Source of the DNA: a virus
DNA: 64,000 nucleotides
Reading direction: 5' to 3' (one strand)
IMG/VR virus record: IMGVR_UViG_3300037840_000041
Location: 1-64,000 of that record
Part shown: in pieces, positions 8,579-28,772 of the stretch
How the letters are laid out: each line of letters starts with the position of its first letter
Numbering within the stretch: position 1 is the stretch's first letter
Program-made: the position numbers and the translations under genes
Notes under the pieces: model-generated
Seen by the model: only the letters and a program-made list of their open reading frames with translations
What the model was told of the DNA's origin: nothing
The model's database searches: none

Positions 8579-8579
8579 C

Positions 8580-8879: not shown

Positions 8880-8922
8880 CAATTGTCTCCAAGGTTGCCG
8901 CCAGCGGACATGCCGACGGAAA

Positions 8923-12517: not shown

Positions 12518-13068
12518 TTGAGTTTTCTGTTTTCGATTGCTGGCTTCGGCGGGATGGTAACTGCCTTTTTCTTTTTCGACTCGGCGGTCTTCAGCAGCGC
12601 GACGATTCTGGACGTTCGTTCCGCTTGCGTGAGCCCGACAGTATTGAACTCGTTTCCATCATCAGGGCGCCGATCCTCTAAATCCAGACTGACACGTTCC
12701 TGAAGACCGAGTCTCGTCTTCAGGAAGAAAATCAGCATCGCGACGTTCGGTAGCACTTCGGCTTTAGCAAGTTGACCGGCCATCGTTAGATGGCTTTTCG
12801 GGTAGTATTCGGCCGGTCCGCCGAGCGCCACGCGCGCCGCAGTCTGCCCAAGCATCGCCTGGAATTTTGCGTCCCCGATCTGAAGCTCGGCCGTGTAGTG
12901 CTTGCGTAGCGTCATTTTCGACCCGAGGCCGATCAGCGCTGCAATTGATTTTTGCGGGACGCCATACGAGGACAGCGACTCGACGCGCGCGCGGCTTTCA
13001 GCCGTCGGGATATGAGGATCGCCACGGCGATCGATGTCGTCGTCCGGCGTTTCCGTTTCATTAACCAT
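12514..13068 (-). CDS. terS: Terminase small subunit
   Basis: 184 aa from ATG 13068 with GGAG nine bases ahead; longer versions starting at 13218 are not supported. Residues about 20-50 form an HTH (ARVESLSSYGVPQKSIAALI), followed by a helical oligomerisation segment and a Lys-rich end. It recognises phage DNA for packaging. An 11-bp inverted repeat lies directly upstream of its ribosome site. Confidence 0.8.
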   Translation of the reverse strand: MVNETETPDDDIDRRGDPHIPTAESRARVESLSSYGVPQKSIAALIGLGSKMTLRKHYTAELQIGDAKFQAMLGQTAARVALGGPAEYYPKSHLTMAGQLAKAEVLPNVAMLIFFLKTRLGLQERVSLDLEDRRPDDGNEFNTVGLTQAERTSRIVALLKTAESKKKKAVTIPPKPAIENRKLN

Positions 13069-13082
13069 TCTCGGGTACTCCA

Positions 13083-13127
13083 ATGTCGATTTTCTAGACC
13101 AAACTAGATGGGAGCAAAAATCGACAT
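13083..13127. repeat. 11-bp inverted repeat next to terS start
   Basis: ATGTCGATTTT at 13083-13093 is exactly inverted as AAAATCGACAT at 13117-13127, with CTAG repeated inside the 23-nt spacer. It sits three bases beyond the terS ribosome-binding GGAG. Candidate operator, RNA hairpin controlling terS, or packaging site. Confidence 0.65.
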
Positions 13128-13368
13128 GCCGAATCGTTGTCACTGCGGCGCCCGGGCGCTGATCTGCGGATGCTGCCTGGCGGGCTGTACTTGCCCGGAA
13201 CATGGAACAAACCGGCAACTAAAGCCTGATTTGATGCCGATTTATCCACAAATTGCTTTGGAGCGCTCTTGCGGAAAGCGGCAGGCTGAGCCATTCTATT
13301 TTGGCTTTAGTAGCCCGCTTTGCTGCGGACAGCCATCGCCGGTTCGGCGATTGCCTTGGAGACGATGA
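13126..13368 (+). CDS. Possible Cys-rich rightward ORF (doubtful)
   Basis: 80 codons from ATG 13126. The first 25 residues are unusual for a shadow frame: six Cys in CHCG, CGCC and CTCPEH arrangements like a zinc knuckle. GGGAG lies 11 bases upstream. Against it: it is on the opposite strand to all neighbours and the second half looks random. Listed because the region has no other gene. Confidence 0.2.
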   Translation: MPNRCHCGARALICGCCLAGCTCPEHGTNRQLKPDLMPIYPQIALERSCGKRQAEPFYFGFSSPLCCGQPSPVRRLPWRR

Positions 13369-13369
13369 C

Positions 13370-13948
13370 TCACAGATTGTGATCGATGCCGCTCTTGGCG
13401 AGCGCCTTCTTGACGATGGCGCGCGCTTCGGCTGCGCGCGCTGCAGGCACCGTCAGAAATATCGTGGTCTTGCTCTTGGGCGCTTGCGGCTCATTCGAAG
13501 TGGCTGGCGCTGTCGTCACAAAATCCGATATCGAGAAGCCGGTCAGATCAAGATTGTAGTCGAGCTTCTTCAGCTCGCCCAATTCAAGCGCCAGTAGATC
13601 GTCGTCCCACTCTGACAGTTCGCTCGATCTGTTGTCCGAAATTACGATGGCGCGCTTCTGCGCATCCGTGAGCCCGCGCAACACAACAACAGGCAACTCC
13701 GCAAAGCCCAACTCGCATGCTGCCAGCGTGGCTCCGTGGCCCGCCAGGATCGTGTCGAACTCGTCGATCAATAGCGGCTTGGTAAAACCGAACTCGCCGA
13801 TCATCGCCACGAGCGCGCGAATCTGTTCCTCAGAGTGAACCTTGGGATTTTGCGGATACGGCTTTAGGTCTGTGACCTTGCGTCTTTCAGTCTTATCGGC
13901 CGGGAACGCCAACCGCGCTGCAGGCGCCGCGACTTGAGATTGTGCCAT
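13370..13948 (-). CDS. ParB/Spo0J-type N-domain protein
   Basis: 192 aa. Residues 25-100 carry the ParB N-domain order: VTDLKPYPQNPKVHSEEQI, a GFTKPLLIDE strand, ILAGHGATLAACELG, then VVLRGLTDAQKRAIVISDN. It lacks the HTH of true ParB. In phages such proteins often lie next to the terminase, sometimes fused to methylases. It overlaps the gene upstream by 85 nt. Role unknown; DNA- or nucleotide-related by family (ParB N-domains can bind CTP). Confidence 0.75.
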   Translation of the reverse strand: MAQSQVAAPAARLAFPADKTERRKVTDLKPYPQNPKVHSEEQIRALVAMIGEFGFTKPLLIDEFDTILAGHGATLAACELGFAELPVVVLRGLTDAQKRAIVISDNRSSELSEWDDDLLALELGELKKLDYNLDLTGFSISDFVTTAPATSNEPQAPKSKTTIFLTVPAARAAEARAIVKKALAKSGIDHNL

Positions 13949-14238
13949 TCGATAGGTTTCCCCATGCGCTCGGTAACGACGCTGTCGATGTACGCCGCGA
14001 ACTCGGCGTCGATCGCCGGGTCTTCGAAGTTACACTCGCGCCGGCCGAAGCGACTCCCGTTGAACCGCCTGTCGAAGTCGGACTTGAAGCGCTGCTTGAA
14101 GACCTTGATGTCCGGAGAGCGAGGGCAGGCATTCAGCGCGGCGCGCGCCATCGGTCCCAGGGTATCGAAGACCCGCATCTGCGAGTTGCTTTCCTCGGCA
14201 ACGCTGGAAAACTCGATCTTGATACCAAGGCCGATCAT
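13864..14238 (-). CDS. Hypothetical protein
   Basis: 124 aa; no family recognised. It is alpha-helical by composition, with a conserved-looking centre (KVFKQRFKSDFDRRFNG, FAAYIDSVVTERMG). The start overlaps the upstream stop and the 3' part overlaps the ParB-like gene by 85 nt, which is long for this genome; one of the two starts may be annotated too early. Confidence 0.5.
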   Translation of the reverse strand: MIGLGIKIEFSSVAEESNSQMRVFDTLGPMARAALNACPRSPDIKVFKQRFKSDFDRRFNGSRFGRRECNFEDPAIDAEFAAYIDSVVTERMGKPIEWHNLKSRRLQRGWRSRPIRLKDARSQT

Positions 14239-14579
14239 CAGCCGACCGGCAGTTGATCTTCTCGCAATGAGAATTCCACCTGCAGCGTGTGCTTGAGGAA
14301 GTCCTCGATCTGTACATCGCTCGTGAGACGCATCGACTGCACATGGGTGCCGCCGGCATCGATATCGTCAGCCAAGCGCCGAAGCGCCGCCGTCATTCTA
14401 GCGCGGGTTACCTCTGCGCTGCGGCCACCGCCGACATGCTGACCAGCTACGCCGAACGAATAGGCCTTGTCTGGACCATAGGCATTTGCCTTGGCGCTGA
14501 AATCTTCCGGCACAACGGCTACTGTCGCGCCAAGCCCGAGCATCGAAAGCGCCGTGCGGCGTGAAAGCGGATCAGTCAT
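14238..14579 (-). CDS. Protein with Tat-like leader, unknown
   Basis: 113 aa from ATG 14579, preceded by AAAGGAG at nine bases; a TTG at 14600 is less likely. The N-terminus reads PLSRRTALSMLGLGATVAVV followed by a possible AKA cleavage site: twin arginine plus a mild hydrophobic core, as in Tat signals. The remaining 85 residues contain helices and a C-terminal strand (HTLQVEFSL). If exported it would reach the periplasm folded. No enzyme motif seen. Confidence 0.55.
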   Translation of the reverse strand: MTDPLSRRTALSMLGLGATVAVVPEDFSAKANAYGPDKAYSFGVAGQHVGGGRSAEVTRARMTAALRRLADDIDAGGTHVQSMRLTSDVQIEDFLKHTLQVEFSLREDQLPVG

Positions 14580-14596
14580 CAGGGGCAACTCCTTTT

Positions 14597-14920
14597 TCAA
14601 TCCTCGGCGTCGATCGCCTCAGCGTCTTGGACTTCGCCGCGCATCAGGGGCAGCGTTGACGCTGACGCGCTCGGCTTTGTGACGACGTTAGGATGGCCCG
14701 GCAAATACCATAGCCTCTGGCATGCGTCAGAGAAAACATAGTTCGCATTGTAGCCTCGCGGCTCCTGGTGCCGGCGACGCGATCTATTGCCGTCCCGTGT
14801 CCATTCGTGCGGCCAGTCCGTCATGAAGCCCGCGTCGATCAGCACCGCGATCACCACGGGATATTGTGCGAACGCCTCAACGTCGCTGCGATGGACCGGA
14901 TAGCTTTTCTTTTTGAACAC
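14597..14920 (-). CDS. Hypothetical protein
   Basis: 107 aa from GTG 14920, chosen because TTAGGAACG precedes it at ideal spacing; the TTG at 14971 has no ribosome site. The sequence has a helical N-terminus (YPVHRSDVEAFAQYPVVI) and an aromatic centre, with an acidic end. No family recognised. It is separated by 17 nt from the Tat-like gene. Confidence 0.5.
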   Translation of the reverse strand: MFKKKSYPVHRSDVEAFAQYPVVIAVLIDAGFMTDWPHEWTRDGNRSRRRHQEPRGYNANYVFSDACQRLWYLPGHPNVVTKPSASASTLPLMRGEVQDAEAIDAED

Positions 14921-15019
14921 GGCCGTTCCTAATAAAAGGGGTGGCGGCCCATTCGCGGCGCCGCCTGCCAAGGGCCGAATCAGCCGCGCAATTTAAAGCG
15001 GCGTTGCGCGCTGACCAGC

Positions 15020-15241
15020 CTAACCCTTCGGCTTCTTGCCGATCACCAGAACCTCGTAAGGTGCGTTCTTCGCGATGATGTGCGCCTTCAGCCTGCCGCT
15101 GGTCGCGCCGTTGATCGCATCCATCAGCTCGGGCGACGATGTCCCGATGCCGATCGTATCGTCGATAAACGGCGCTTCGAGCTTCGTCTCCCAATGCGCG
15201 GTCTCGAAAGCGTTGTCGAAGTCAAACTTAATCCCGCACAT
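15020..15241 (-). CDS. Small hypothetical protein
   Basis: 73 aa from ATG 15241 (MCGIKFDFDNAFETAHWE). It has a short alternating pattern ending with YEVLVIGKKPKG, like a small alpha/beta fold. Upstream extension to 15304 overlaps the next gene stop region and is unlikely. Not recognised. Confidence 0.5.
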   Translation of the reverse strand: MCGIKFDFDNAFETAHWETKLEAPFIDDTIGIGTSSPELMDAINGATSGRLKAHIIAKNAPYEVLVIGKKPKG

Positions 15242-15312
15242 GGTCTCACCCGGGTATTTTCGAGATGATGGCTGGGTCGCTTGTACTTCGCTCGCCAGCG
15301 CCACCCCAATTC

Positions 15313-15858
15313 TCAGCCGACCGGCTCGTTCTGCGGCCGCACGTCGAGCGATTCATAGACCGTGCCGTCAGCTCGCTTCCAGCTCACGAAGCGCCTGCCC
15401 TCCCGGGTGGTTTCGCTGCCGGGGACGATCACATCCGGCTTATCATCGTGGAACATTTTCTGGTCGAGCATCGTATGGTCGCGCTCCAAAAAGGAGGCCT
15501 TCGCGCTCGGATCAAGCGTCGCCGATGCGACCACGACGCCCGGCATCCTGCGGATCAGATCAGCGATCTGTACCAAGATCGCGCGCTCGGGCGAGGCATC
15601 GCCGACCATCGTCCCGGGATCGCCGGGCATGCGCGGCGTGGTGCCGGCCTCGAGTCGCGTCACGCCCACCGGGCCGATGACCGTCGAGACCATCGCGTCG
15701 TGGTGATCTTCGAGATCTTTCATCAGCGCGGCCTTCGACTCCTGGCCGGTGACCTGGCCGAGGCGATCCCGGATGGACTTCAGGAACAGGTCAACGCGGT
15801 CGCCCACGTTGGGCAGCGTCTTCGCGTGCTGTGCGGCGTCGTCAAATTGAATTGGCAT
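15313..15858 (-). CDS. Hypothetical protein
   Basis: 181 aa. The first 60 residues are helical (VGDRVDLFLKSIRDRLGQVTG), followed by a central loop rich in P, G and T and a C-terminal strand segment (RRFVSWKRADGTVYESL). No family recognised. It is part of the run of small genes ahead of the head module. Confidence 0.55.
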   Translation of the reverse strand: MPIQFDDAAQHAKTLPNVGDRVDLFLKSIRDRLGQVTGQESKAALMKDLEDHHDAMVSTVIGPVGVTRLEAGTTPRMPGDPGTMVGDASPERAILVQIADLIRRMPGVVVASATLDPSAKASFLERDHTMLDQKMFHDDKPDVIVPGSETTREGRRFVSWKRADGTVYESLDVRPQNEPVG

Positions 15859-15912
15859 TGTGTGGCACTCCGTCTTGGGATGGCCGGAAATTCGACGCGT
15901 CAGGCCTTCGCG

Positions 15913-16200
15913 TCAGTGAGCGGCGTCAGTCCCGATAACGGGATGCGCTGCTGCAGGTTCCTTTTGCGTGTCGGCCTCGGACTCGATACTGGCGAGAGCC
16001 GCGGTGGCCGCAGCCTTCATCTTGTCGTCGCCGTCGCGCTTGAGCGCGGTCAGGTATTCGACGAACTTGCCGCTCGCCTTCAGGAGGTTGCAGGTCGGGC
16101 AGAACGGCTTGGACCATTCCCAGTTGCCGTTTCCGGTGTGCTGCTTTTCCTTGATCATCGGCGACTGATGAATCTGGCAGGTCTCGTCTCCAAGGGACAT
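15913..16200 (-). CDS. Small Cys-pair protein
   Basis: 95 aa from ATG 16200, with GGAGGCTGAT ahead of it. It contains FCPTCNLLKASGK (one CxxC) and another Cys near the start, then an Ala-rich helical tail. The earlier start at 16314 would overlap the next gene by 113 nt and is rejected. Possible zinc binder; function unknown. Confidence 0.6.
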   Translation of the reverse strand: MSLGDETCQIHQSPMIKEKQHTGNGNWEWSKPFCPTCNLLKASGKFVEYLTALKRDGDDKMKAAATAALASIESEADTQKEPAAAHPVIGTDAAH

Positions 16201-16201
16201 A

Positions 16202-16414
16202 TCAGCCTCCAAGTTTGAGATCAGGATTGTCAAGCAGCTTACCGCTGGCGTCATAGCACCGAGGCCGCACTTCGCCCTCTCGTCTCTTGTCTTTCTCGAG
16301 AATCTTTCCGGCACCGCCGCATAGTGTGCACTCAGCCTCGGTGACCTTCACCGACAGATGCGCGCCGGGCATTATCGGCACAACGCCATGTCCAAGGCAG
16401 CGCGGGCACCTCAT
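16202..16414 (-). CDS. DnaJ-type zinc-knuckle small protein
   Basis: 70 aa. Two CxxCxGxG repeats are visible: CPRCLGHG near the start and CTLCGGAG at about residue 29, as in the DnaJ cysteine-rich domain. Such single-domain proteins are common in phages. It overlaps the coiled-coil gene upstream. The role may be zinc-dependent protein contact. Confidence 0.65.
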   Translation of the reverse strand: MRCPRCLGHGVVPIMPGAHLSVKVTEAECTLCGGAGKILEKDKRREGEVRPRCYDASGKLLDNPDLKLGG

Positions 16415-16839
16415 GCTAGTGCTCCGGTTGCAAGCTGGCGCGGCCGAAGCCGGTTCTCATCCTTGATCGTCGACAGGACATCGCGCTGCCGATCGCGCAG
16501 GCCGCGCTTGTCGGCCCACTCGCTCATTCGGCGAAGTGCCTTGCGGACGTTGATCACATCGCGGTCGTTGTCGCGGACGCAATCGACGTTGTGGCGATCA
16601 AGCAGATGCTCGCGGAGCGCGCCCAGCAGCAGCGCGTTGACGTCCATCAGCATCTCGACATCGGCCTCGAGAACAGCCACGCGGCCTTCGAGCCGCTCCG
16701 ATCGCTTGCCGAGCAACGCGCTATCGGCGAACCCGCCGACCGACTGCATCCGCTTGATGGTGTTGTCGACGATGCCGAGCCGCGACTTCAGATCGTTGAT
16801 CTGCTGGTCGATCGTGGTGGGCTTGCGGTCAGTCGCCAT
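16411..16839 (-). CDS. Coiled-coil hypothetical protein
   Basis: 142 aa, mostly helical. Residues 10-75 have heptad-like spacing of L, I, V and M (SRLGIVDNTIKRM, RLEGRVAVLEADVEMLMDV), then a charged helical region. No family recognised. Likely a small structural or oligomerising protein. Confidence 0.6.
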   Translation of the reverse strand: MATDRKPTTIDQQINDLKSRLGIVDNTIKRMQSVGGFADSALLGKRSERLEGRVAVLEADVEMLMDVNALLLGALREHLLDRHNVDCVRDNDRDVINVRKALRRMSEWADKRGLRDRQRDVLSTIKDENRLRPRQLATGALA

Positions 16840-17335
16840 ACGGCACCACCGCGACGGTAAACACGAGATGCTCGATCTCGGTGACCGACACCGCCATGTA
16901 AAGCTTGTTGCCGCAGGCGATGTTGAAAGCTTTGCCGACCGAGAATGCCGCGCCGATGTCGTCGGCTAGCAGCACGTCACGAGTCTTAAAAAACTGATAG
17001 CCGCCAGTGAGCAGCGGCGCTTGCAGCGCGTCAACCGCAAGATCGTGGTGGATCGGGCGACCAAGAGCTTCGACAATATCGGCGCGAATGTCGTCCGCTG
17101 TTTTTTCTTTCGGCCAGTCGATCTGCGGCGCAACCAAGCCATCGACAATATCTAGCATGGAGTACGTCGCTAGCGTGCCCGGCGTGACCGGCACAAAGTG
17201 CATGGGCCAGCCACCCTCGAAATAGAACGGTTCAACTTTTCCTGGCAGCGATCCACCGGGCCAGGAGTCCAAGCGCTCCATGGGCTTGCTCAGTATGTCA
17301 GCCTGCGAACCAAGCTTTGGATTGAGCGACATCAC
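16829..17335 (-). CDS. Hypothetical protein
   Basis: 168 aa, not recognised. It starts MMSL or MSL (ATG pair at 17335/17332). It contains aromatic-rich beta segments (VEPFYFEGGWPMHFVPV) and a helical stretch (TADDIRADIVEALG). It overlaps both neighbours by a few bases, in keeping with the operon. Confidence 0.55.
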   Translation of the reverse strand: MMSLNPKLGSQADILSKPMERLDSWPGGSLPGKVEPFYFEGGWPMHFVPVTPGTLATYSMLDIVDGLVAPQIDWPKEKTADDIRADIVEALGRPIHHDLAVDALQAPLLTGGYQFFKTRDVLLADDIGAAFSVGKAFNIACGNKLYMAVSVTEIEHLVFTVAVVPYGD

Positions 17336-17832
17336 TGTTCCCCCGGCCGAATGATCCGCGGCCGTTGCGGCATCGTCAGCTTCTTGCCGCTCGAGATCGC
17401 TTCGTCAATCCGAAGCCGCTTGCCGCCCTCGACCACCAGCATCTTGCCGATGTCGACCGCCATCTGGTTTTCAAAAACATACGTCGATTCGTTCGGCGTG
17501 TCAGGATCCAGCACCATCACGGTGCCCGGCAATCCCGCAACATGGCCGACGCTGAATTTCGTCGCCGGCGTCGCCGCCACGAGCTCGCTGCCGTTGGCGC
17601 GCGAATTCTGCCGCATCTGATTGAGGACGCCCTTGACGCCCAGCGCAAAGTCGCCGAGCGCCTCCAGCGAGGGGAAGTGAAGCCGAACCTGCTGGCCGGT
17701 GATCGTCCCGACGACGATCGCGCACTCGTTGCCCAAAGGATCGGCGCCATGCGCCAACGTGTCCCTGATCGAAAGCGTCGGCAGCTTCGCCTCAGCATGC
17801 AGATGTTTCGCGCAATCCGCTAGCGTGTTCAC
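17332..17832 (-). CDS. Hypothetical protein
   Basis: 166 aa, not recognised. It has a mixed alpha/beta pattern (AIVVGTITGQQVRLHF, helix, then TVMVLDPDTP and MLVVEGGKRLRI). It overlaps the genes on both sides. Probably cytoplasmic, since no leader or membrane helix is present. Confidence 0.55.
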   Translation of the reverse strand: MNTLADCAKHLHAEAKLPTLSIRDTLAHGADPLGNECAIVVGTITGQQVRLHFPSLEALGDFALGVKGVLNQMRQNSRANGSELVAATPATKFSVGHVAGLPGTVMVLDPDTPNESTYVFENQMAVDIGKMLVVEGGKRLRIDEAISSGKKLTMPQRPRIIRPGEQ

Positions 17833-18128
17833 CGCATGATCTCCGCCTGCAGTCTCGTGAGAGCGCCTTCCGCCGTGGCTGCAAATTCAAAATGACATTC
17901 CATATTAGAAGGCACATCCATCGGACCATCGCCAAGATGTTCCGATTTGGCGCACCACGCAATAAAGCCAGCGGATTGGCGGCAACGCCTCACCCTAAAG
18001 TACCAGCCACGTAGCCGCTCTCGCTTCTCCTCGTACCAAATTTCCTGCAACTGGTGCCGTAGACCAGCCCAATCTGTGCTCTCGGACTGCGCTTGCGGAT
18101 TGTGCTGACCGTTCGCGCCCTCGCTCAT
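17829..18128 (-). CDS. Hypothetical protein
   Basis: 99 aa. A hydrophilic N-terminus is followed by a Trp/Arg-rich segment (WYEEKRERLRGWYFRVRRC) and a C-terminal helix. The gene overlaps upstream and downstream genes by 4 nt. Not recognised. Confidence 0.5.
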   Translation of the reverse strand: MSEGANGQHNPQAQSESTDWAGLRHQLQEIWYEEKRERLRGWYFRVRRCRQSAGFIAWCAKSEHLGDGPMDVPSNMECHFEFAATAEGALTRLQAEIMR

Positions 18129-18322
18129 GCCGCGTTCCTGATCTCGGCCAAGCGCTGATGCAGCGCGGCTAGCTCAGCCTTGGCTTTGGCCATCTTGCGG
18201 TTCAGCGATCCGAGTTCGTCGATTATCATCTGCTCAAGCAACTCCGCGCCGGTCATCTTGCGCCCTGGCGGCGAGACTGGTCGGCGTTCGGCCCCGGCAT
18301 ACGGAACGAGCTTCGGTCGCAT
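18125..18322 (-). CDS. Small coiled-coil protein
   Basis: 65 aa. A basic Pro-containing N-terminus leads to a helix of about 40 residues (ELLEQMIIDELGSLNRKMA and on). It is the second gene of the leftward block that starts after the 18.8-kb control region. Not recognised. Confidence 0.5.
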   Translation of the reverse strand: MRPKLVPYAGAERRPVSPPGRKMTGAELLEQMIIDELGSLNRKMAKAKAELAALHQRLAEIRNAA

Positions 18323-18424
18323 CTCGCATTTCCTTTACGAGGTCCAGAATAAAATCTCGCACAATCGGCCGGCGCTGATAAGCGCCTGATGCCCCCGATG
18401 GATTAACTAATGTTGATTAGCAAA

Positions 18425-18589
18425 TCAAATTCTGCCGAGCAACAGCAGAATGAGCAGGATAACCACAACGAGGCCCAAGCCGCCGCCGACGCCATAGCCG
18501 CCACCGTAGAATGGCGACCCACCGATGCCGCTGAAGCCGCCGAGCAGGGCGATCACGAGAATGATCAAGATGATGGTTCCGATCGACAT
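18425..18589 (-). CDS. DUF3309-type membrane peptide
   Basis: 54 aa from ATG 18589, with AAGGAACCCCG ahead. Two hydrophobic helices (IGTIILIILVIALLGGF and GLGLVVVILLILLLLG) flank a Gly/Tyr-rich loop; this is the shape of the DUF3309 family, common in Rhizobiales genomes. It is first in the leftward block after the repeat-bearing control region. Inner-membrane location is expected; its role is unknown. It supports an alphaproteobacterial host. Confidence 0.75.
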   Translation of the reverse strand: MSIGTIILIILVIALLGGFSGIGGSPFYGGGYGVGGGLGLVVVILLILLLLGRI

Positions 18590-18687
18590 CGGGGTTCCTT
18601 TCCGCCCGCGCTCCGCGCGCGCCAACTCCCAGCGCTACCGCTTCTCACGCCGATGATCTCGCGGTCGCCATATGCCGACGCAACGAT

Positions 18688-18710: not shown

Positions 18711-18809
18711 ACCGTGCGGATCAGCAGACAGAGGGAGGTCGAAATACCGGCTAGGGCACTTCGCGGGCGCATTGAGTGTCCGGAACTGTCCGCTTGTCAA
18801 GAGGGGAGA

Positions 18810-18911
18810 CCGGGTACGAGAACCGGGTACGGAGCCGGGTACGGAGCCGGGTACGCGGTACATTTTGGAGGTTATGGCATTGAAAATGCAGAATTTATTT
18901 TTCGTACCCGG
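18810..18911. repeat. CCGGGTAC iteron array A
   Basis: CCGGGTAC starts at 18810, 18823, 18835 and 18847 (pitch 13, 12, 12), followed by CGCGGTAC and, after an AT-rich stretch, the inverted box GTACCCGG at 18904-18911. The distance from the last direct box to the inverted box is 57 bp. GTCAAG precedes the array at 18796. Region B at 30.2 kb repeats this layout. A binding array for a repressor or replication initiator is the simplest reading. Confidence 0.8.
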
Positions 18912-18940: not shown

Positions 18941-19591
18941 CTATTTGGCGCGATGCGCGGGGAACGCCGGTGCTGGCCCGGGCCTACCGCGCTCATGCGC
19001 CGGATCGCTTCCGATGCCCGTCAGCGGCCTCGCCCGCAGCTCCCGGCAGCATTCGCGCATGATCTCCTGGCCGCACAGCAGCCGCGCCAGTACCGCGCGC
19101 ACCTTGCTGCCTGGCCACACCTCCAACAACTGCGGTTGGATCAGCCCGAGCCGCCGCGCTATCGCGCGCGCCTCGCCATCCCAAAGCCGCTCGATCAACC
19201 GCGAGCAGCACAGTTCGTCGCGATCGGGTTCCTGATCAATCCGCTTATTGATGATGGTGCCATCGGGGAACACCACCAGCAGATTGCTATGGTAGATCAC
19301 CGCCGGATGATCACGCCACTTAGGATGCACGGCCAACCACACCTCGGGCAGGTAGAAATTATATTCGCGCATCTGAAGATCCAGCCGGCCATCGCCGATG
19401 CTGTCGCGCGGCCCCTTGATCTCGATGCCGACAATGTCGCTCGCATAGACGAACGCCAGATCGACGCGGCGGTTGCCCAGCGCGAGCTCGTGGATGACCC
19501 GGACGTCGGTGCCGCGGCGCTCCGCCATCCAGGCAATCAGCGCCACGCGCATCGCCTGCTCGGCCTTACCCGTGTTGCGACGGTCAGTCAT
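18941..19591 (-). CDS. PD-(D/E)XK-type nuclease
   Basis: 216 aa. Residues 30-60 contain VIHELALGNRRVDLAFV followed by IVGIEIKGPRDS: the E, D and ExK triad of a PD-(D/E)XK nuclease core (D44, then E-I-K near 56-58). A helical segment (REYNFYLPEVWLAV) follows as in this fold. The last 40 residues are Arg/Pro-rich. It overlaps the C5 methyltransferase stop, so the pair could look like a restriction-modification unit, but small nucleases of this kind are also common in phage replication modules. Confidence 0.65.
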   Translation of the reverse strand: MTDRRNTGKAEQAMRVALIAWMAERRGTDVRVIHELALGNRRVDLAFVYASDIVGIEIKGPRDSIGDGRLDLQMREYNFYLPEVWLAVHPKWRDHPAVIYHSNLLVVFPDGTIINKRIDQEPDRDELCCSRLIERLWDGEARAIARRLGLIQPQLLEVWPGSKVRAVLARLLCGQEIMRECCRELRARPLTGIGSDPAHERGRPGPAPAFPAHRAK

Positions 19592-20508
19592 GGCTTGAAC
19601 GTCACCGCGATATGCCGACTCAGCGGCAGCGGGATTTTCGCGATCATGGCGCTGGCAAATTTTCGGCCCGGAGATCCGCTTCGAAAGCGGCGCATGAGGG
19701 ATGGATTATCGGGGCCAAACCAAGTGCCACCACACTTCAACCCGTCCGCAGCAGTTGCCGTGAAACCACGTTGCCACATCGGGTCTCTACCATCTGGATT
19801 CCGACCCTTCCCGCTCGTGGTGTTGTGGGCAATCTTGAACCATGATCCGCCGTTGTTCTTGATCGCCTGCTTGCCTGCAGCACACGTAAAATCCTGACCG
19901 CGTTTCGTCCGATCGCTCCAATTCAGGCCGGGAGCTTTCACTCCGGTATGCGCCACAGCGGCCGATTGAAAAGATTTGCCGCTGCCGTCAAAACGGAATG
20001 AGGGCACCTTCGGCATCGCCGGCATCGCCGGCATCGCCGGAACGTCGCCCCACAGATAAAAACTCCCAAAGGATGCCCGGGCACGTCCGACAAACTTCTG
20101 CGCACCGCGCACGTTCTCAACAATGAGCGGAATATGCCGTCCGGCCGCTTCGCAGGCTTCGCGCTGGATTCGGAAGCACGCGTCGAACAGCTCATTGCTC
20201 GGCGGCGGCAGGGCCTTCGCCTTTTTCCATGGCATCGCGCGGTAGCTGTACTCTTGGCACGGAGGCGAAGCGACGATCAACGCGGCGTGCCGGAATTGCG
20301 AGCCGTGCAGCGTCCGAACATCTTGGAGGATCAACTCGCCAGGATACCGATGCTCTCCATATTCGTGCCGCTCAATGTCGTAGCCGATCACGCGCCAACC
20401 TTCGCCGAGCAAGCCTTCGGCCCAACCGCCGAGTCCGCAAAATAAATCTACGGCGAGCGGGCGATCATCAACCGCCAACAGAAGATCAATAGCAGTCGGC
20501 GTTCTCAC
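19588..20508 (-). CDS. DNA C5-cytosine methyltransferase
   Basis: 306 aa from GTG 20508, which overlaps the HNH stop (GTGA); a longer frame to 20853 is a shadow. Motif I is FCGLGGW (23-29), the catalytic motif IV PPCQEYS (82-88, Cys84), and motif VI ENVRG (130-134). The recognition region includes a PAM tripeptide repeated three times (9-bp DNA repeat at 20012-20038). The C-terminal motif IX/X part is short. It would methylate cytosine in phage DNA, likely against host restriction. Confidence 0.85.
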   Translation of the reverse strand: MRTPTAIDLLLAVDDRPLAVDLFCGLGGWAEGLLGEGWRVIGYDIERHEYGEHRYPGELILQDVRTLHGSQFRHAALIVASPPCQEYSYRAMPWKKAKALPPPSNELFDACFRIQREACEAAGRHIPLIVENVRGAQKFVGRARASFGSFYLWGDVPAMPAMPAMPKVPSFRFDGSGKSFQSAAVAHTGVKAPGLNWSDRTKRGQDFTCAAGKQAIKNNGGSWFKIAHNTTSGKGRNPDGRDPMWQRGFTATAADGLKCGGTWFGPDNPSLMRRFRSGSPGRKFASAMIAKIPLPLSRHIAVTFKP

Positions 20509-20951
20509 CGTTGCGCCCCGCGCTCCGTGTGAAACAAGATCACCAGCTTCGCATTGTGCTCGTCGCCGGATAGGCCGTACAGCACAAGCGCCAGCAAGAA
20601 CGGGTCGATGCCGAACCATCGCCAGAACGCGAGCTCGTTCATCGAATGCTGGATGTCGTGATGGCCTCGACAAAGAGGCAACAACCAATGATCGTCCGCA
20701 GTCTCGCCGCCACCTAGTTCGCGCTTGCCGTGCAGTTCGCTCGCCGCGCGGATGTGCGCGGGATCGACCACGCCAAAGAGGAACGGCTTGCGGTCGCCGT
20801 TGCGCGCGCCAGGGATAGGTATCGATCGTGCCGGCGAGACACAGCACACGCACGGCAGGCGCTTGATGAAGCTCTTGTGGCTTTCGCGGCGCTCGCGCGG
20901 CCGGCGGAACGGCTGCAGCTGGAAACCGCCCTCGGGGACAATGCGCGCCAT
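20505..20951 (-). CDS. HNH-type nuclease (DUF968-like)
   Basis: 148 aa. It has PCVCC at about residue 34, VDPAHIRA at 62 and LLPLCRGHHDIQH at about 90: the paired Cys and His arrangement of an HNH/DUF968 nuclease. The C-terminal helices (FWRWFGIDPFLLAL) are typical. Related proteins are thought to act in phage recombination or as ninB-type junction enzymes. It lies directly upstream of the C5 methyltransferase. Confidence 0.75.
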   Translation of the reverse strand: MARIVPEGGFQLQPFRRPRERRESHKSFIKRLPCVCCVSPARSIPIPGARNGDRKPFLFGVVDPAHIRAASELHGKRELGGGETADDHWLLPLCRGHHDIQHSMNELAFWRWFGIDPFLLALVLYGLSGDEHNAKLVILFHTERGAQR

Positions 20952-21149
20952 CTACATCTGCCTCCGCTTGATAGTTTCGGCGGATGCGGTGTCAGCGGCT
21001 TCCAGTTCGGCAAAAATCTTAATCGCCTGCTCTAGATCGGCGAATGTGTCGTCGAAAAACAGACGCAAAGCCAAGCTCTGAGCGCTCTCGCCTTCTGGCC
21101 ATTCCTCCATCATGATTCTGGCCATCTCGGCCGCGCGTTGGGTTGCCAT
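20952..21149 (-). CDS. Small acidic helical protein
   Basis: 65 aa from ATG 21149, which overlaps the upstream methyltransferase stop (TGATG); the frame extends further upstream only as shadow. It is acidic and helical (LALRLFFDDTFADLEQAIKI). No family recognised. The next ATG follows its TAG directly. Confidence 0.55.
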   Translation of the reverse strand: MATQRAAEMARIMMEEWPEGESAQSLALRLFFDDTFADLEQAIKIFAELEAADTASAETIKRRQM

Positions 21150-21949
21150 CAGATCGCCATCCTGTATTGCCCGCGCGCGGTGCGCTCGCCGACGCGCTGC
21201 AGGATCTTCCGGACCTGCTCGCGCGCAAACTTGCGCCCTTGCGCCTTGTGATGAAATCGAACTGCCTCCCACACGGCGGCCACCGCCACCGGGCCTTCGG
21301 CCTCGGTCAGCACGCCAACGATAAGCTCGCACCATGTGACATCCCGGAACGCGGCACCGAGAACGCTGCGGTTCCAGATCAACGGAATGAACTGGCCGGC
21401 GATACCGCTGGCCCGAAGGATGTCCGCGTTGTCGTCCCCATAGGCGATCAGCGCGGTCGGCCCGCCGGCATTGCCCGGCGCACGGTCGCCCGCCAAGAAC
21501 GTCTTGCCGCAGGCAGGCCGACCGTTGACCCACTTCAGCTCCGAATAGCCCTCGCCGATGTGGAAGTGGATGCGGCCGAACATCAGCAGCACCGCGTGCG
21601 CGCGTTGCCAGATGGAGCGAACCCACGCCGCGGTCTCTGTGCGCGCGAAGATCAGCCACGTCCCGTTGCCATGATCAGCCGCGCGCGAAAGCCATGGCTC
21701 GATCTCGCCGGTGCCATAGGGCGGATTGCCGAAGACGCGCCATTCCGGCGGCCACTCTTTCGACAGGCCATCGTCGAGAATTGTATAGGTTCGGAGCGCA
21801 GTTGGGTAAGGCTGTTCAATCGGTGCACAAGGATCGAGCCCGTAAGATTGCCAGCCGCCTGTCCGCTCGATCGTATCGGGCGGCGTCAACCATTCGACAG
21901 TGCGTGACGCTTGGGATTGATGCCCACCGATGCCCTTAGAGTTCGCCAT
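21149..21949 (-). CDS. Phage N6-adenine DNA methyltransferase
   Basis: 266 aa. The pattern W.TPP near 20, GLDPCA at 37, DDGL at 59 and GNPPYG at 74-79 is that of the phage N6A-methyltransferase family (Dam-like), with NPPY the catalytic motif IV. SAM binding would be by the following GTWLIFARTETAAW strand/helix. It methylates adenine in phage DNA. The C-terminal 60 residues are an added helical part (KFAREQVRKILQRVG) perhaps involved in DNA binding. Confidence 0.85.
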   Translation of the reverse strand: MANSKGIGGHQSQASRTVEWLTPPDTIERTGGWQSYGLDPCAPIEQPYPTALRTYTILDDGLSKEWPPEWRVFGNPPYGTGEIEPWLSRAADHGNGTWLIFARTETAAWVRSIWQRAHAVLLMFGRIHFHIGEGYSELKWVNGRPACGKTFLAGDRAPGNAGGPTALIAYGDDNADILRASGIAGQFIPLIWNRSVLGAAFRDVTWCELIVGVLTEAEGPVAVAAVWEAVRFHHKAQGRKFAREQVRKILQRVGERTARGQYRMAI

Positions 21950-22328
21950 GGGCCATCCTGTCGCAAAAGTCGTAAAGCGTTTCTATCTGGTCGAACCAGA
22001 CGACGTCTTCGCCGCCGACCGTGCCGTTCACGGTCCCCTTCATTATTTCCTCGTAGCCCGCTCGAAGCTTTGCATTTTCTGGAATCAGCTGGCTGACGCG
22101 CCGCGCGAGCGCGCAATCGACGCGCCTGATGCGTTCCTCGTCCGGTTTCTTAAGAGCGGCGAGTTCAGCCTGCAGATCGCTGTGGCGTTTCATGCATCTG
22201 GCTAGCGCGTCAGAATATCCTTTGAGTTCGTAGGCTATCCTCGGATGGCACCACAAGAAAATCCTCACGACTGTAGTCCGGATGATGCCATAGCCGAGAA
22301 ACCGCGGATCGAGGCGCTCGCCGATCAT
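21936..22328 (-). CDS. Hypothetical protein
   Basis: 130 aa with a hydrophobic N-terminal 30 residues (GYGIIRTTVVRIFLW) that may associate with the membrane, then a coiled-coil stretch (DLQAELAALKKPDEERI) and an acidic end. No family recognised. It overlaps both neighbours. Confidence 0.5.
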   Translation of the reverse strand: MIGERLDPRFLGYGIIRTTVVRIFLWCHPRIAYELKGYSDALARCMKRHSDLQAELAALKKPDEERIRRVDCALARRVSQLIPENAKLRAGYEEIMKGTVNGTVGGEDVVWFDQIETLYDFCDRMAHGEL

Positions 22329-23293
22329 GTTGGAGCCCTTCCATCGCGCTTGAGGCCTTCAACAATCACTTTAACGGCCTCCTTCCTTTGTCGGTAGAAG
22401 GTCTGCCGCTGGACTCCTAATTGCACACACTTTTTCGATATCGGGACGCCCCACGCGCGCCACATCGATCCAAGGTTCACAAACATCGGAAGATCGGTCG
22501 GCAAGCCACTGAGATATCTCGCTGACCACGCCAGCGCATCCTCCATGCGCCGAACTTCCTCAGTTGATGGTGGGCCTTCTGATCGAATGAGCCGTCCGAT
22601 GGCCTTGCGCAGCGATCGGTTGCCCGCCTGGGCGACCAGATCGGACATCTCGCGGACGATCGCCGGCATGGCGTTGCCGAACTGCCGCGGCCCGCGGTGG
22701 CGATCGGCTGTGCGGAACAGCGTCCGGAAGGCCTCGTCCATCCGGGCTTCGACCAGCTGCTCGGTCCATTCCGGCCCGCGTACCGATGCCCGGGCCACAC
22801 GGGCCCGCTCAGCGGCCTTGCGTCGGCTGACGGACAGATCATCATCTGTCCGGACAATCGCCCTTGTGGCGAACGCTGAGGGCGCACTGGCGGCCTCGGC
22901 AATCTGTTCGGCGGTCAGTTCGGGGACTTCCTCGGGCAACGGCGCCAGCACATCGTCCGGATCGATATCGGCGCGCCGGCCCGTCGCCGCATCAAGCGGC
23001 CACTGGCGTTCCTTGAGCCGTTCCTCGATCCGCCGCTTCTGCCGACCAGCACGCTTTTGCGGCGGCAGATGTGTATCGGTCGTCAGCCAGGCGGTTGCCT
23101 TCTGGTCGGGCGCAGGCTTGGGCGGCGGCAACTTCCGGCTGGCGAGCTTGCGCGCGCGGGCGGCTTCACGTAGCGCCTTGGCCTCGGCCTTTCGGCGACG
23201 ACGATCTTCCCGCGCGTTTTTCAGTTCGCGCTTGGCATCTTCCGTTGGTGGTGTCCGTTCGACCATTTCCATTTCCGCATCGCTCCCTATCAT
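22325..23293 (-). CDS. Putative DNA-binding protein with C-terminal HTH
   Basis: 322 aa. The first 110 residues are very basic and helical (EDRRRRKAEAKALREAARAR). The C-terminal 80 residues hold a helix bundle ending WRAWGVPISKKCVQLGVQR followed by TFYRQRKEAV, an HTH-like element resembling the DUF6362 type found in alphaproteobacterial phages. It sits between two methyltransferase genes and could regulate replication or packaging genes. The family link is weak. Confidence 0.5.
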   Translation of the reverse strand: MIGSDAEMEMVERTPPTEDAKRELKNAREDRRRRKAEAKALREAARARKLASRKLPPPKPAPDQKATAWLTTDTHLPPQKRAGRQKRRIEERLKERQWPLDAATGRRADIDPDDVLAPLPEEVPELTAEQIAEAASAPSAFATRAIVRTDDDLSVSRRKAAERARVARASVRGPEWTEQLVEARMDEAFRTLFRTADRHRGPRQFGNAMPAIVREMSDLVAQAGNRSLRKAIGRLIRSEGPPSTEEVRRMEDALAWSARYLSGLPTDLPMFVNLGSMWRAWGVPISKKCVQLGVQRQTFYRQRKEAVKVIVEGLKRDGRAPT

Positions 23294-23991
23294 AGGTCCA
23301 AATTTTCCTGGCGCATCGGCCTCGGCGCTTCGATGAACAAATCCGGCCGCGCCAGCGCGTCGGCGATGCGGCGGCAGGCGACCTCAAAATACTTCGGCAC
23401 GATCTCGATGCCGATGAACTTGCGGCCTAGTTTGACGGCGGCAACGCCCGTGGTGCCGGAGCCCATGAAGGGGTCGAGGATCAGAGTCGCAGTGGGGGGT
23501 AGGAGCTTTATACACCATCGCATCAAGTCGACCGGCTTTTGAGTCGGACACCAGCGCTCTTTGCCGCCGCCTTTCTCACTCGCTTTGCAGATGCCTTTCC
23601 ACAAATGCGAGAAGATGCGATCTTTACCGCGCCCTTTTTGCCAAGCGAACTCGACATCGGAGAAACTATCGAACGCTTCCATCCCGGCTAACTTATCCCA
23701 CGCGAGCCAACAGCCGTGAGGCAAGCGCGACGCATAATGATTGCCTCCCCACAAGATGACCTCTTCAAAGTCCAAAAATGGCGCGGGATCGAAGGGCTCG
23801 GTGTCACCCTCGATTGCTTCAATATTCCTAACGTGGTGTTTGCCCTTGCCGCCTGATCCTTTGCTGTAGCCAATCCCATATGGCGGATCAGTCACCACGG
23901 CATCGACCTTGCCAAGATCAGGCAATATCTCCCGGCAATCTCCGAGGTAAAGCGTAACGCCTTCGGCGAGATGTTCGACGCGCGGGTTCAT
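23290..23991 (-). CDS. DNA methyltransferase (N6-adenine/N4-cytosine, beta class)
   Basis: 233 aa. DPPYGIGYS at 35 is catalytic motif IV and LDPFMGSGTTG at 172-182 is the SAM-binding motif I, in the beta-class order. A short target region lies between (WAWQKGRGKDR-like). Compact size is common in phages. It overlaps the primase stop and the HTH gene start. The specificity cannot be read from sequence; a CcrM (GANTC) type is not clearly supported. Confidence 0.88.
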   Translation of the reverse strand: MNPRVEHLAEGVTLYLGDCREILPDLGKVDAVVTDPPYGIGYSKGSGGKGKHHVRNIEAIEGDTEPFDPAPFLDFEEVILWGGNHYASRLPHGCWLAWDKLAGMEAFDSFSDVEFAWQKGRGKDRIFSHLWKGICKASEKGGGKERWCPTQKPVDLMRWCIKLLPPTATLILDPFMGSGTTGVAAVKLGRKFIGIEIVPKYFEVACRRIADALARPDLFIEAPRPMRQENLDL

Positions 23992-26516
23992 CAGAATACA
24001 CTCCTCGGCGGACCGCCAAAATCATCCTCGGTTTCGCCCGGCGCCAGGATCGGCTTCGCTGCCGGCTTAGCTCTAGCGATGGGCGGCCACTGCAAGCCCT
24101 TGCCGTAGACTCGCTTTCCGGTCGGCCAGACATAATGAAGCATCCTCGGTTTCGGATCAGTGTCAGTCGGGTCGACCATCGAGGCAACGCCGATCACCCG
24201 GTATGGGCGAAGGTCTTCGCGGAAGCGGCGCGTCCGCGCCTTGATCCGATTCCGATATTGTTCCTTCGTCTCGTCAAGTTCCTGCGGGTCGCTTTTTTTG
24301 TATTCGTTTCCAAGATCAGCCCACTGCACAACCCGCGTCACGCTCTGCGGCAGTTTCAGCGCGGCAGGCGGCGGCGTGCCCATTTCGTCGATCGCGCTGA
24401 GCAGCGCCTGGAACACCGCAGCATGGTTGACTGTCAGTGCGAAACCTTCCGGTCGGTCTTTGCGATTTGATGCCCCGGCCTCAGCTGCGGCGGTGGCGCT
24501 GACTGGATCGACAGAGACCATCGACGAGATATCGTCGCCATCTTCGTCGACGCCGATCACGACGCGATGAAGCACAAAATCAAACCTCAGGGTGTCATCG
24601 CCGTCGCGAACCTTGTCCGTGCTGATGCGGCGGACGACGCGGCCCTCATCGTCGCGCCGTTCCACTTGTTTCTTTTCATCGGAGTAGGACCGCTTGATCA
24701 GCAGGGCAACGTCGATGCCGTTAAAAAACTGCTCGTTGCCGCGGTGGCGGCCTTCCTGATTCGTATGGCCGACAATCCACAGCGGGCAGGTGGTGCCATC
24801 GCGAACGGCGCTGTAATTGGTCTGGATGCGCGCCACATCTTCGCTCTTGATCTCGCTCGAGCCGCGCGTTGCCGCGTTGTGGGTATCGATCACCGAATGC
24901 GAAAGCGGCAGCTTGAAATTGCGGGATATCTCGACGATCTCGGCGGCAACGCCCTTGGCGTCGTCTTCGCTGGCGTACAAACCCGGCGGCCGCGTCAGCC
25001 AGGCGAATGAATGAAGATCGGCGTGCGTCAACCCGTGGTATTGCATATAGGCACGCAGCCGGTTCTCGAATCCTTCGGAGCCCTCATAGGTCAGATAGAC
25101 AATCCCGCCAGCTTCGACTCGGCGGCCGCCGTAGTCTTTCCCGAAGTGAACATGCATGCACATGTTCAACGTCTCGAAGGTCTTGCCCGACTTGGTCGGC
25201 CCCATGATGAGCGTATCGATGTTTCGCGGGACCAAAAATTTTATTCGCCATGGGAACTGCCGGGCCGGCGCGTTCAGGTCGCGCGCGGTCTTCGCGCCAT
25301 ATCTCGACTTATAAGGCTCTGGCACCCACGGCTTCAGCGAGTCGACGATCTCCAGCAATCTCGCACGATCACCAGCTGCACCATCGCGCCAGTCCTTCAC
25401 GTCGCCCCGCTCCGGACACGACGGCCAGATTGTTTTGAAATTCAGCACGCGGACATTGCAGCCGCGATCTTTCAGCATCGGCGCGACCTTCGCGGTGCGC
25501 TCGGCCCCGGCACGCTTGCCGGTCTTTGGATGGGGCGGGTCGTTGTCCTCAAGGATCACAACGTCGGCAGCGCCGCGGAAAAACTCTGCCATGTCGGTCG
25601 AGAAATTGCCGGCGCCGCCGGTGTTCGATACCGCGAGCAATCCCCATTCTTTCAAAACGTCGACGTTGCCTTCACCTTCAGGCAGAAAAACAATGCGCTG
25701 ATCTTCCGGCGGCTCTTGTATCTCGTCGATCACGTCGTTCGCGTTGTAAAGCCAGTGATCGACATTGCCGGCCGCTTCGAATGTCCGCAACTCGTAGCCG
25801 CCCGTGGCCTTCTTCTCGTCGTCCGCACGGACCCAATCGCCGTCCTTCCGCCAGCGCAGAAATTCAAACGGCTGGCCGGTCTTCCGATCAATGAAGTCGA
25901 GAGCCCAAACGAACGTCCCATCATTGTCAGGTGATGGTCGGCGCTGACTCGGCTTCTTGAAGATCTTGCCGTTTTTATTTACCGCCCACGAGCCGTCCGC
26001 GAGCCTTTTTTGGAAGCGGACCGTTTGGTAGAGGACCGAATTGTCCGGCGCTTTGATGTCCCAGACTTGGACGATCTCGAGCTTTCCATCTGGCGGTGAA
26101 GCTTGCGCTCCATCACCGCTTTGAGGCCGATCTTCTCTAGGCGCGTCAAAATGTTCGCTTGCGCCGTTTCCAGATTTCCGACCTTGCGATTTTCCGCTTG
26201 AACCAGTTGAAGATGTAGATCGACCAGGTCGGCTTCTGAGTACGACGCCAGCCTCCTGCGCGAGGGTTTCGATCGCCGCGACTTTCGTGAGACCTGCGTA
26301 CCTCTCGACGAAGTCGAAAACATCGCCTGCTTTTTCGCCGCCATTGCCGAAGTCCTTCCATATCTGTTTTGAATTGTTGACCGTGAACGACGGGTTGTCC
26401 GCTACGACATACTCACTGCCGCGCTTCACCAACTTGAAGGTGCGCCCGACCACATCGGACAGCGTGAGCCGATTTTTTATCTCCTGAAGCTGTTCCCTGT
26501 TGGCGTCGAATGCCAT
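23991..26516 (-). CDS. Primase-helicase (Toprim plus RepA-like AAA ATPase)
   Basis: 841 aa from ATG 26516 (AAAGG ahead; overlaps the upstream stop). Residues 12-90 keep the frame of a CHC2 primase finger (NPSFTVNNSKQIWKDFGNGG, then GDVFDFVERYAGL) but lack the zinc Cys/His. A Toprim-like region is at about 270-345 (LPEGEGNVDVL, VVILEDND). An AAA_25/RepA-type ATPase follows with Walker A GPTKSGKT at about 439 and a strand IVYLTYEG. The C-terminal 150 residues are a separate helical part. It should prime and unwind at the origin; no polymerase gene was found. Confidence 0.8.
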   Translation of the reverse strand: MAFDANREQLQEIKNRLTLSDVVGRTFKLVKRGSEYVVADNPSFTVNNSKQIWKDFGNGGEKAGDVFDFVERYAGLTKVAAIETLAQEAGVVLRSRPGRSTSSTGSSGKSQGRKSGNGASEHFDAPREDRPQSGDGAQASPPDGKLEIVQVWDIKAPDNSVLYQTVRFQKRLADGSWAVNKNGKIFKKPSQRRPSPDNDGTFVWALDFIDRKTGQPFEFLRWRKDGDWVRADDEKKATGGYELRTFEAAGNVDHWLYNANDVIDEIQEPPEDQRIVFLPEGEGNVDVLKEWGLLAVSNTGGAGNFSTDMAEFFRGAADVVILEDNDPPHPKTGKRAGAERTAKVAPMLKDRGCNVRVLNFKTIWPSCPERGDVKDWRDGAAGDRARLLEIVDSLKPWVPEPYKSRYGAKTARDLNAPARQFPWRIKFLVPRNIDTLIMGPTKSGKTFETLNMCMHVHFGKDYGGRRVEAGGIVYLTYEGSEGFENRLRAYMQYHGLTHADLHSFAWLTRPPGLYASEDDAKGVAAEIVEISRNFKLPLSHSVIDTHNAATRGSSEIKSEDVARIQTNYSAVRDGTTCPLWIVGHTNQEGRHRGNEQFFNGIDVALLIKRSYSDEKKQVERRDDEGRVVRRISTDKVRDGDDTLRFDFVLHRVVIGVDEDGDDISSMVSVDPVSATAAAEAGASNRKDRPEGFALTVNHAAVFQALLSAIDEMGTPPPAALKLPQSVTRVVQWADLGNEYKKSDPQELDETKEQYRNRIKARTRRFREDLRPYRVIGVASMVDPTDTDPKPRMLHYVWPTGKRVYGKGLQWPPIARAKPAAKPILAPGETEDDFGGPPRSVF

Positions 26517-27634
26517 CAAGCACCTTTGCGAGAGCGTGGCCGCTCGATTCTATTCTTGGCGATGGCCACATATTTCGCGCTCAATTCTATCAACGTGGAT
26601 TTTCGACCGGTTGCGGCTGCGACGACTCCCACGGTGCACGAGCCGCCGAACGGATCGAGAACCCTGCCGCCTTCTGGACACCCAGCCTTGATGCACTTGG
26701 CCACAAGCGCTTCCGGGAACGTAGCAAAGTGAGCGGCCCTGTATGCTTGCGTCGGTATCGACCACACGTTGCGGCTATTGCGCGTCTTCAATAAATGACC
26801 GCTGATAGCTTCGTGAAACGAAGCGTTCGCCCGGATGCCGCTGCGCGGCTTCGCTGATTTTGGCGATACACCGGGCGCCAACTTTCTGGCTACTGGCACG
26901 CGGTCAATCAACATTCGGCTGTTTCGCCCAACCGACGACCTTGGATGGGTGTTCGGACTTACAGGCTCGGCAATCGCGCGCGCGTTATAAAAATATCGCT
27001 CGCATTTTGTGAGCAGCCAAACCTTCTCGTGCGCAACGGCTGGCCGATCCATGATTGATTCCGGCATCGCGTTGGGTTTGTGCCAGATGATCTCGCTGCG
27101 AATCCACCAGCCATCATCCTGCAGGGCGATAGCCAGTCGGTTTGAAATCATGCACAGGTCTTTTGGTTTCAGATAATCGCCAGCGACCACACGACCGCCG
27201 CTGTCAATACGGCACTGCCGATCGGCAGCAACAAACTTCCCGCGCGGCGTACTGTGCATCGGCTCATAGATCGGGCCGACGGTTGAAAACGGCTTGTCTC
27301 GGAACGTTCGGTCATCATTTCCCTTGGCCTTCGTGTCCTGCGCGCTTCGGCCGTTCGGCGCAGCAGCGTAGCAATCACCGTAGTTGAGCCATAGCGTCCC
27401 CTCGGGCTTGAGAACACGTCTAACCTCGCGCAGAACTTCCACGAGCGCTGCGATATGATCGAACAGCGTGCGCTCCGATCCCATTTGCCCGCGGATGCCG
27501 TAGTCCCTCAGCCCCCAATATGGTGGCGATGTGACGCAGCAATCGAAGGAGTTGTCGTCCATACATCGCAACGCGTCTAAGGCGTCCCCTGTTATTATCT
27601 CGACCGCGCCACCGCGTAAAAGAATGCGCTTCAC
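26516..27634 (-). CDS. DNA methyltransferase (SPPYW type, N4-cytosine/N6-adenine)
   Basis: 372 aa from GTG 27634, with AGGGAG five bases ahead and a GTGA overlap with the upstream stop. Catalytic TSPPYWGLRDYG at 35-46 and SAM motif LDPFGGSCTVG near 326 give beta-class order. The 280 residues between hold a large target-recognition part. The SPPYW form is frequent among N4-cytosine enzymes. It is the fourth methyltransferase of this leftward block. Confidence 0.87.
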   Translation of the reverse strand: MKRILLRGGAVEIITGDALDALRCMDDNSFDCCVTSPPYWGLRDYGIRGQMGSERTLFDHIAALVEVLREVRRVLKPEGTLWLNYGDCYAAAPNGRSAQDTKAKGNDDRTFRDKPFSTVGPIYEPMHSTPRGKFVAADRQCRIDSGGRVVAGDYLKPKDLCMISNRLAIALQDDGWWIRSEIIWHKPNAMPESIMDRPAVAHEKVWLLTKCERYFYNARAIAEPVSPNTHPRSSVGRNSRMLIDRVPVARKLAPGVSPKSAKPRSGIRANASFHEAISGHLLKTRNSRNVWSIPTQAYRAAHFATFPEALVAKCIKAGCPEGGRVLDPFGGSCTVGVVAAATGRKSTLIELSAKYVAIAKNRIERPRSRKGA

Positions 27635-28530: not shown

Positions 28531-28772
28531 CGCTTCGCCCTTGGTTTGTCGGCCGCTGTAACCCGTTCCAATTCCTGTCGCTCAAGCCATTCGAGCAAAT
28601 TCTTTAGATCGCACATCACCGCGTACTCTCGTTTCCAGCCCGGCAGCACTGATGCCGGATCCATCGACTCGCGCGCCTGAAAAGACCGCATCCGTTCCTG
28701 AATGAACGCGAACATGCGATCGCGCGGCGGCCCTGCCATCTCCCACCAATTGAGTTCGGTCGCGTCAGCCAC
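28527..28772 (-). CDS. Small hypothetical protein
   Basis: 81 aa starting at GTG 28772, overlapping the RuvC-like stop by eight bases. Helical and rich in E, R, W and M (MFAFIQERMRSFQ, LLEWLERQELERV). No family recognised. Confidence 0.5.
   Translation of the reverse strand: MADATELNWWEMAGPPRDRMFAFIQERMRSFQARESMDPASVLPGWKREYAVMCDLKNLLEWLERQELERVTAADKPRAKR

Follow-up and report, generated by a model that had tools for sequence, protein, structure and literature searches.

Satellite phage P4 carries two separated repeat arrays, ori and crr, in one genome, and these have origin function; we know of no promoter-phased geometry in them. Among described systems that place short binding sites in a fixed layout, Escherichia coli CRP activates with its site centred at −41.5 at class II promoters and at −61.5 at class I promoters (PMC6301791), while in phage Mu two proteins, Mor and C, act on dyad sites, the dyad at Pm being centred at −43.5 and Pm itself lacking a −35 element (PMC4287176). 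In P1 parS, short boxes lie in two clusters flanking an IHF site, and box identity can set specificity (PMC10999674). Here we describe two arrays, A and B, a real and conserved regulatory pair that likely serves activation, in a phage group without close isolates.

We analysed bases 1–64000 of a 65,548-base virus record (a 65.5-kb phage record), hereafter the window. The perfect box CCGGGTAC occurs eight times in this 64-kb window, and every copy falls within A (18810–18911) or B (30204–30291), both of which are intergenic. Across 100 dinucleotide shuffles the mean count was 0.68 and the maximum 3, with 0/100 reaching the observed eight. The original prediction that the window holds no other full box is therefore correct. 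A and B have an identical layout and are separated by 11.4 kb: on the minus strand, a CGGGTACG box is followed by a spacer of about 44 bp that contains an IHF-like motif, then by a row of four or five GTACCC boxes, TTGAC and a leftward operon (Table 1). Within A, CCGGGTAC stands at 18810, 18823, 18835 and 18847, CGCGGTAC ends at 18861, and the inverted copy occupies 18904–18911. Within B, exact copies of CCGGGTAC at 30204 and 30227 are followed by CGCGGTAC and by the inverted copy at 30284–30291, and two imperfect boxes lie at 30216 (one mismatch, GCGGGTAC) and 30191 (two mismatches, AGGGGTAC).

All box coordinates first proposed for A and B were recovered on the sequence, including the four listed for B, although the regularity implied by that list was lost, as B carries one- and two-mismatch boxes. 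Also borne out were the 57 bp from the last direct box to the start of the inverted box in A and in B, the CATTGAA within both spacers and the GTCAAG that precedes both arrays, whose complement, CTTGAC, contains the conserved TTGAC. The boxes themselves are asymmetric direct repeats of 8–9 bp (CGTACCCG in operon-ward reading) plus one inverted copy, and not palindromes occupied by a dimer; a dimeric regulator had been envisaged. We rejected GTAC avoidance through restriction, as the low GTAC count is mostly due to low TA (Markov ratio 0.81).

Table 1. Arrays, promoter-like elements, operons and candidate binding proteins, with positions in the window.
Feature	Position	Strand	Details
Array A, ahead of late (structural) block	18796–18911	−	Inverted box 18911–18904, IHF-like spacer, boxes 18861–18810, TTGAC ~18801; layout kept at late-block head in G1–G7
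Array B, ahead of replication operon	30186–30291	−	Inverted box 30291–30284, spacer, boxes 30241–30192, TTGAC 30191–30187; layout kept in G1, G2, G3, G5, G6, G7
Distal inverted box of A	18904–18911	+	In leftward sense, 104 bp before TTGAC
Distal inverted box of B	30284–30291	+	In leftward sense, 93 bp before TTGAC
Spacer of A, IHF-like TTTCAATGCCATA	18862–18900	−	Motif position common to many other arrays
Spacer of B, IHF-like GTTCAATGACTTA	30242–30280	−	Spacer motif scoring
TTGAC(A), putative −35 of late promoter	18797–18801	−	17 bp downstream of last box
TTGAC(T), putative −35 of replication-operon promoter	30187–30191	−	7 bp downstream of last box
CTTTCGCGCGCGG, conserved start region of B	30145–30161	−	Holds CGCGCGCGG
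Replication operon headed by B	18941–29827	−	11 kb; first gene 29297–29827, RuvC-like 28765–29289, primase-helicase 23991–26519, methyltransferases, HNH protein 20505–20951
Late block headed by A	1–18590	−	Terminase 10934–12517, portal 9246–10937, head genes
XRE-type HTH protein, P22 C2-repressor-like, candidate binder	35625–35843	+	72 aa; in every full-size relative
ParB-like protein, candidate binder	40615–42453	+	ParB_N (CTPase-type), HTH and long C-terminus; in all full-size relatives

Near and distant DNA searches of phage records returned no match (the near search covered 50,697 phage records). Seven relatives were collected by other routes: G2 via the primase (60–62% identical), G1 via the array pattern, G3, G4 (a fragment), G5 and G6 with a profile of three primases, and G7 with a pattern for the start region of B (G1–G7 are the records behind L013, L003, L033, L035, L036, L037 and L135 in that order; W is the present record). 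The first array-pattern scan gave 14 matches, 12 of which look coding or chance, and broader pattern scans gave at least one new member, G7. The relatives are diverged, with primases 43–62% identical to that of W, and together the eight genomes carry 15 arrays: W, G1, G2, G3, G5, G6 and G7 have both A and B, the pairing in G1 assuming a circularly permuted record, and the fragment G4 shows A only. Wherever the arrays occur in relatives, B stands before the replication operon and A before the late block. Box spacing, whose loss in close relatives had been named beforehand as an outcome that would count against the prediction, proved to be kept in these relatives at both operon heads, and it is the geometry that is kept while the spacers have diverged.

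Both arrays face the same way, into leftward operons, and A lies 30 bp behind the final gene of the replication operon; the rightward early block is without an array. Synteny of window 1–600 and 61394–64000 with G5 suggests that the record is circularly permuted, in which case the late block, starting at 18.6 kb, would likely pass position 1 and continue from 65.5 kb down to 51.5 kb, giving it a probable length of about 33 kb. A heads a leftward block, as had been proposed, but the 18.6-kb extent given for that block is probably too short. The replication operon also holds, at window 19588–27652, several methyltransferase-like genes (C5, Dam-like and N6/N4 types), and the late block encodes a second ParB-like protein (window 13370–13948, minus strand), which is present in all relatives except G2.

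The structural genes are common to W and G5 and unrelated to those of the other relatives. Because they differ behind a conserved A, the A array outlives the genes behind it, which places the arrays with the replication and regulation module and not with the structural module. When window 1–13218 was compared with G1, G2, G3, G4, G6 and G7, the structural genes were unrelated despite the common replication module, and entire late-gene modules seem, from these comparisons, to have been exchanged between relatives.

A TTGAC follows 14 of the 15 arrays within 45 bp, the exception being G5_A, which has TTGCTGAC; the chance of a TTGAC in a given 45-bp stretch of W is 3.7%. At all seven B sites, the GC-rich CGCGCGCGG lies 34–36 nt past TTGAC, the distance at which a transcript would start if TTGAC is the −35, and G3_A and G7_A have a −10-like GCTACATC at the expected place. 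A consensus scan of the window found no consensus sigma-70 promoter at either array, which the poor −10 accounts for. A poor −10 may be as expected of activator-dependent promoters, yet it is a real gap in the proof, and some published activator-dependent promoters have a poor −35 instead (PMC4287176). Three B arrays (G1_B, G3_B and G7_B) have an additional inverted box that coincides exactly with the −10 position, 21–26 nt after the start of TTGAC, perhaps for feedback control. The leaders of all 15 arrays have predicted hairpins 30–120 nt after TTGAC, differing in sequence, and the G4_A leader has a terminator-like stem followed by a T run; attenuation or antitermination is possible.

With box positions counted relative to TTGAC, the B arrays of W, G1, G3 and G7 are nearly identical, the inverted box lying at −93 to −95 and the direct boxes at about −50, −43, −32, −20 and −7 (the −32 box is degenerate in G3 and G7). 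The last box stands elsewhere in the other B arrays whose offsets we list (−16 in G6_B, −27 in G2_B), and at A it lies at −16 to −18 (W, G3, G7, G5), at −28 or a degenerate −15 (G4), or at −34 to −36 (G1, G2, G6). The last-box offsets are 7, 16–18, 27 and 34–36 bp upstream of TTGAC, in steps of about 10 bp, or one helical turn. A Rayleigh test gave R = 0.78 at period 10 (p ~0.002, with the −7 sites counted once), and since the array rows are related by descent this phasing amounts to about four independent shifts, each near a whole number of turns. The boxes had been described as about one helical turn apart, which holds, and the phasing extends to the conserved TTGAC: with TTGAC taken as the −35, box centres fall near −40, −50, −60 and −70. 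Our box search of the 15 arrays found no clear inverted box in G1_A, G4_A, G5_A or G5_B.

In many arrays an imperfect IHF consensus, TCAATGnCwTA, lies 16–18 bp into the spacer. Summed over the 15 spacers, the IHF-like score exceeds those of all 300 mononucleotide shuffles; single sites are weak, and for this reason we infer, and do no more than infer, a role for IHF.

The box sequence itself has changed within the group. G3 and G7 carry GTCACC in place of GTACCC, changed at both A and B, and G5 has GTATCC at B with a mix of GTACCC and GTATCC at A. The primases of G3 and G7 are 74% identical and their clade has 100/99% support in the primase tree; since the two are sisters, the change to GTCACC was probably one event, not two. 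This pattern is most simply explained by a single factor in each phage that recognises A and B alike. The original claim that one regulator binds A and B is thus well supported by the seven genomes with both arrays and by the paired change in G3 and G7, and the one factor would be trans-acting for both sites. Alternatively, the factor may be host-encoded and differ between hosts.

Candidates for this factor that are present in all full-size relatives include the ParB-like protein, the XRE protein, the primase-helicase, the RuvC-like resolvase and the HNH protein. Group-specific residues, which separate one box class from the other, number 28/136 in the ParB-like protein versus 10/221 in the primase, and the share in the ParB-like protein is the largest among the four larger proteins compared. 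Its relative branch is also among the longest where the box changed, as is that of its neighbour at 42766–43338. The HTH protein at 35625, named at the outset among the proteins to test, is real and kept in every full-size relative, but phages with identical boxes differ in its recognition helix, and we regard the ParB-like protein as at least as good a lead.

Several other proteins were set aside as binders. The first gene of the B operon (29297–29827), which had been named at the outset, has no DNA-binding domain that we could find; the DUF6362 protein at 22325–23293 was not found in G3, G5 or G7 though the arrays are present there; and the model of the neighbour at 42766–43338 (pLDDT 77) had no significant PDB fold match. 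An HTH open reading frame at 35199–35885 (minus strand) is a shadow antisense to 34476–35456 (plus strand), its matches in relatives being best taken for coding-strand shadows, and should not be annotated.

We consider it probable that a single activator array, placed upstream of a promoter, is present in two copies, A and B, and turns on the replication and late operons; activation instead of repression, the involvement of IHF, the order in time and the choice of the ParB-like or the XRE protein as binder are parts of this reading that we infer. One DNA-binding protein, probably phage-encoded, would occupy the boxes as a row of monomers or oligomers that share roughly one helical face. The ~44-bp spacer is probably bent by a host protein of the IHF type, which would bring the distal inverted box into contact with the row. 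The complex would recruit host sigma-70 RNA polymerase to a promoter just downstream, whose −35 (TTGAC) is good and whose −10 is poor. The replication operon would thereby be turned on from B and the late operon from A, and the early block, which runs rightward and has no array, would presumably be made first. In its most specific form, which we hold to be quite improbable, the activator on the phased arrays would be a ParB-family (CTPase-type) protein firing the replication and late operons together, with box recognition re-tuned in whole lineages while array geometry is kept, and the regulatory system would be previously undescribed.

The same rows could instead be repressor operators, through which one protein keeps both leftward operons off, in early infection or in a carrier state, by looping via the distal and −10 boxes. 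The layout is loop-like, an XRE protein resembling the P22 C2 repressor occurs in all full-size relatives, and the extra inverted box at −10 in the three B arrays suits repression or autoregulation. We nevertheless consider repression unlikely: 12 of the 15 arrays show no box between TTGAC and the putative start, the row stands upstream of the polymerase at phased distances, and the −10s are too poor for repression to be needed. Moreover, the scanned proteins showed neither an integrase nor any other sign of a lysogeny gene, and a single scan of bacterial genomes gave no prophage relative. Another reading takes A and B as iteron arrays of a two-site replication origin, like P4 ori/crr, bound by the primase-helicase or another initiator. 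B adjoins replication genes, the arrays flank the primase gene, and repeats with an IHF-like site resemble iteron origins. In a GC-skew test for the origin that had been suggested at 30.2 kb, the minimum of the cumulative skew lay within 0.3–1.5 kb of B in six of seven genomes, a result confounded because transcription diverges there. The suggestion that B is an origin and A its copy finds no support in the form proposed, since A is without a skew extremum and both arrays are built round a promoter-like element, tied to TTGAC and pointing in the same direction into operons; the primase, besides, has few group-specific residues to match the box change. There may be an origin near B, but transcription would even then be the best explanation of the array as such, which recurs at A, and an origin as the function of the arrays strikes us as distinctly improbable.

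A further reading, modelled on P1 parS, has the ParB-like protein bind the arrays as condensation sites or as sites akin to a centromere. It would accord with the CTPase-type N-domain and HTH of that protein, its presence in all full-size relatives, and its top group-specific share and long branch at the box change; P1 parS has box clusters around an IHF site (PMC10999674). P1 parS is, however, a single site with two box types, the long branch is common to the neighbour at 42766–43338, and partition leaves the −35 linkage and the phasing unexplained. No ParA partner was seen among the genes scanned with Pfam and PHROGs, a part of the gene set, and we judge a centromere very improbable. As for chance or relic repeats, such as a mobile element flanked by arrays might leave behind, A and B are similar and directly oriented and, being 11.4 kb apart, could enclose an insertion. 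But the shuffles and the retention of the arrays at the same two operon heads, with undiverged geometry, in relatives so distant in their primases already refute this reading, to which we give next to no credence.

The arrays offer a clean, testable cis-regulatory code for an uncultured phage group, in which two arrays and one presumed factor would govern most of the genes read leftward. The paired box change, at sites far apart in the genome, is a natural experiment on the co-change of regulator and site, and the regulatory module stays while the structural genes behind it are swapped. The fixed geometry could serve to find and time late genes in metagenomic phages. The literature searched, with incomplete coverage, held no earlier report of these arrays.

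Like P4 ori/crr, the present genome has two separated repeat arrays. The likeness to P1 parS lies in several short boxes on both sides of an IHF site, the IHF-like motif being weak here, whereas the P1 site is a single centromere with two box types and no promoter linkage. With E. coli CRP at class I and class II promoters, the arrays share sites near −41 and −61 (with TTGAC taken as the −35), steps of a helical turn and a position upstream of a sigma-70 promoter, a putative one here (PMC6301791); CRP, however, has a 22-bp site, in contrast to the asymmetric 8–9-bp boxes found here in rows of three to five with a distal inverted box and an IHF-like spacer. Phage Mu resembles the proposed system in that a phage-encoded activator recruits host polymerase and related sites serve middle and late promoters (PMC4287176), but the promoters proposed here do have a −35 (TTGAC), a single kind of array serves the two operons and the boxes are not dyads; no Mor/C domain was found in the proteins scanned with Pfam or PHROGs. 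The kind of device, a phage activator acting on host polymerase, is already known; what appears, within the searches made, to be new is the array design, the use of one array type ahead of the two operons and the paired change of box.
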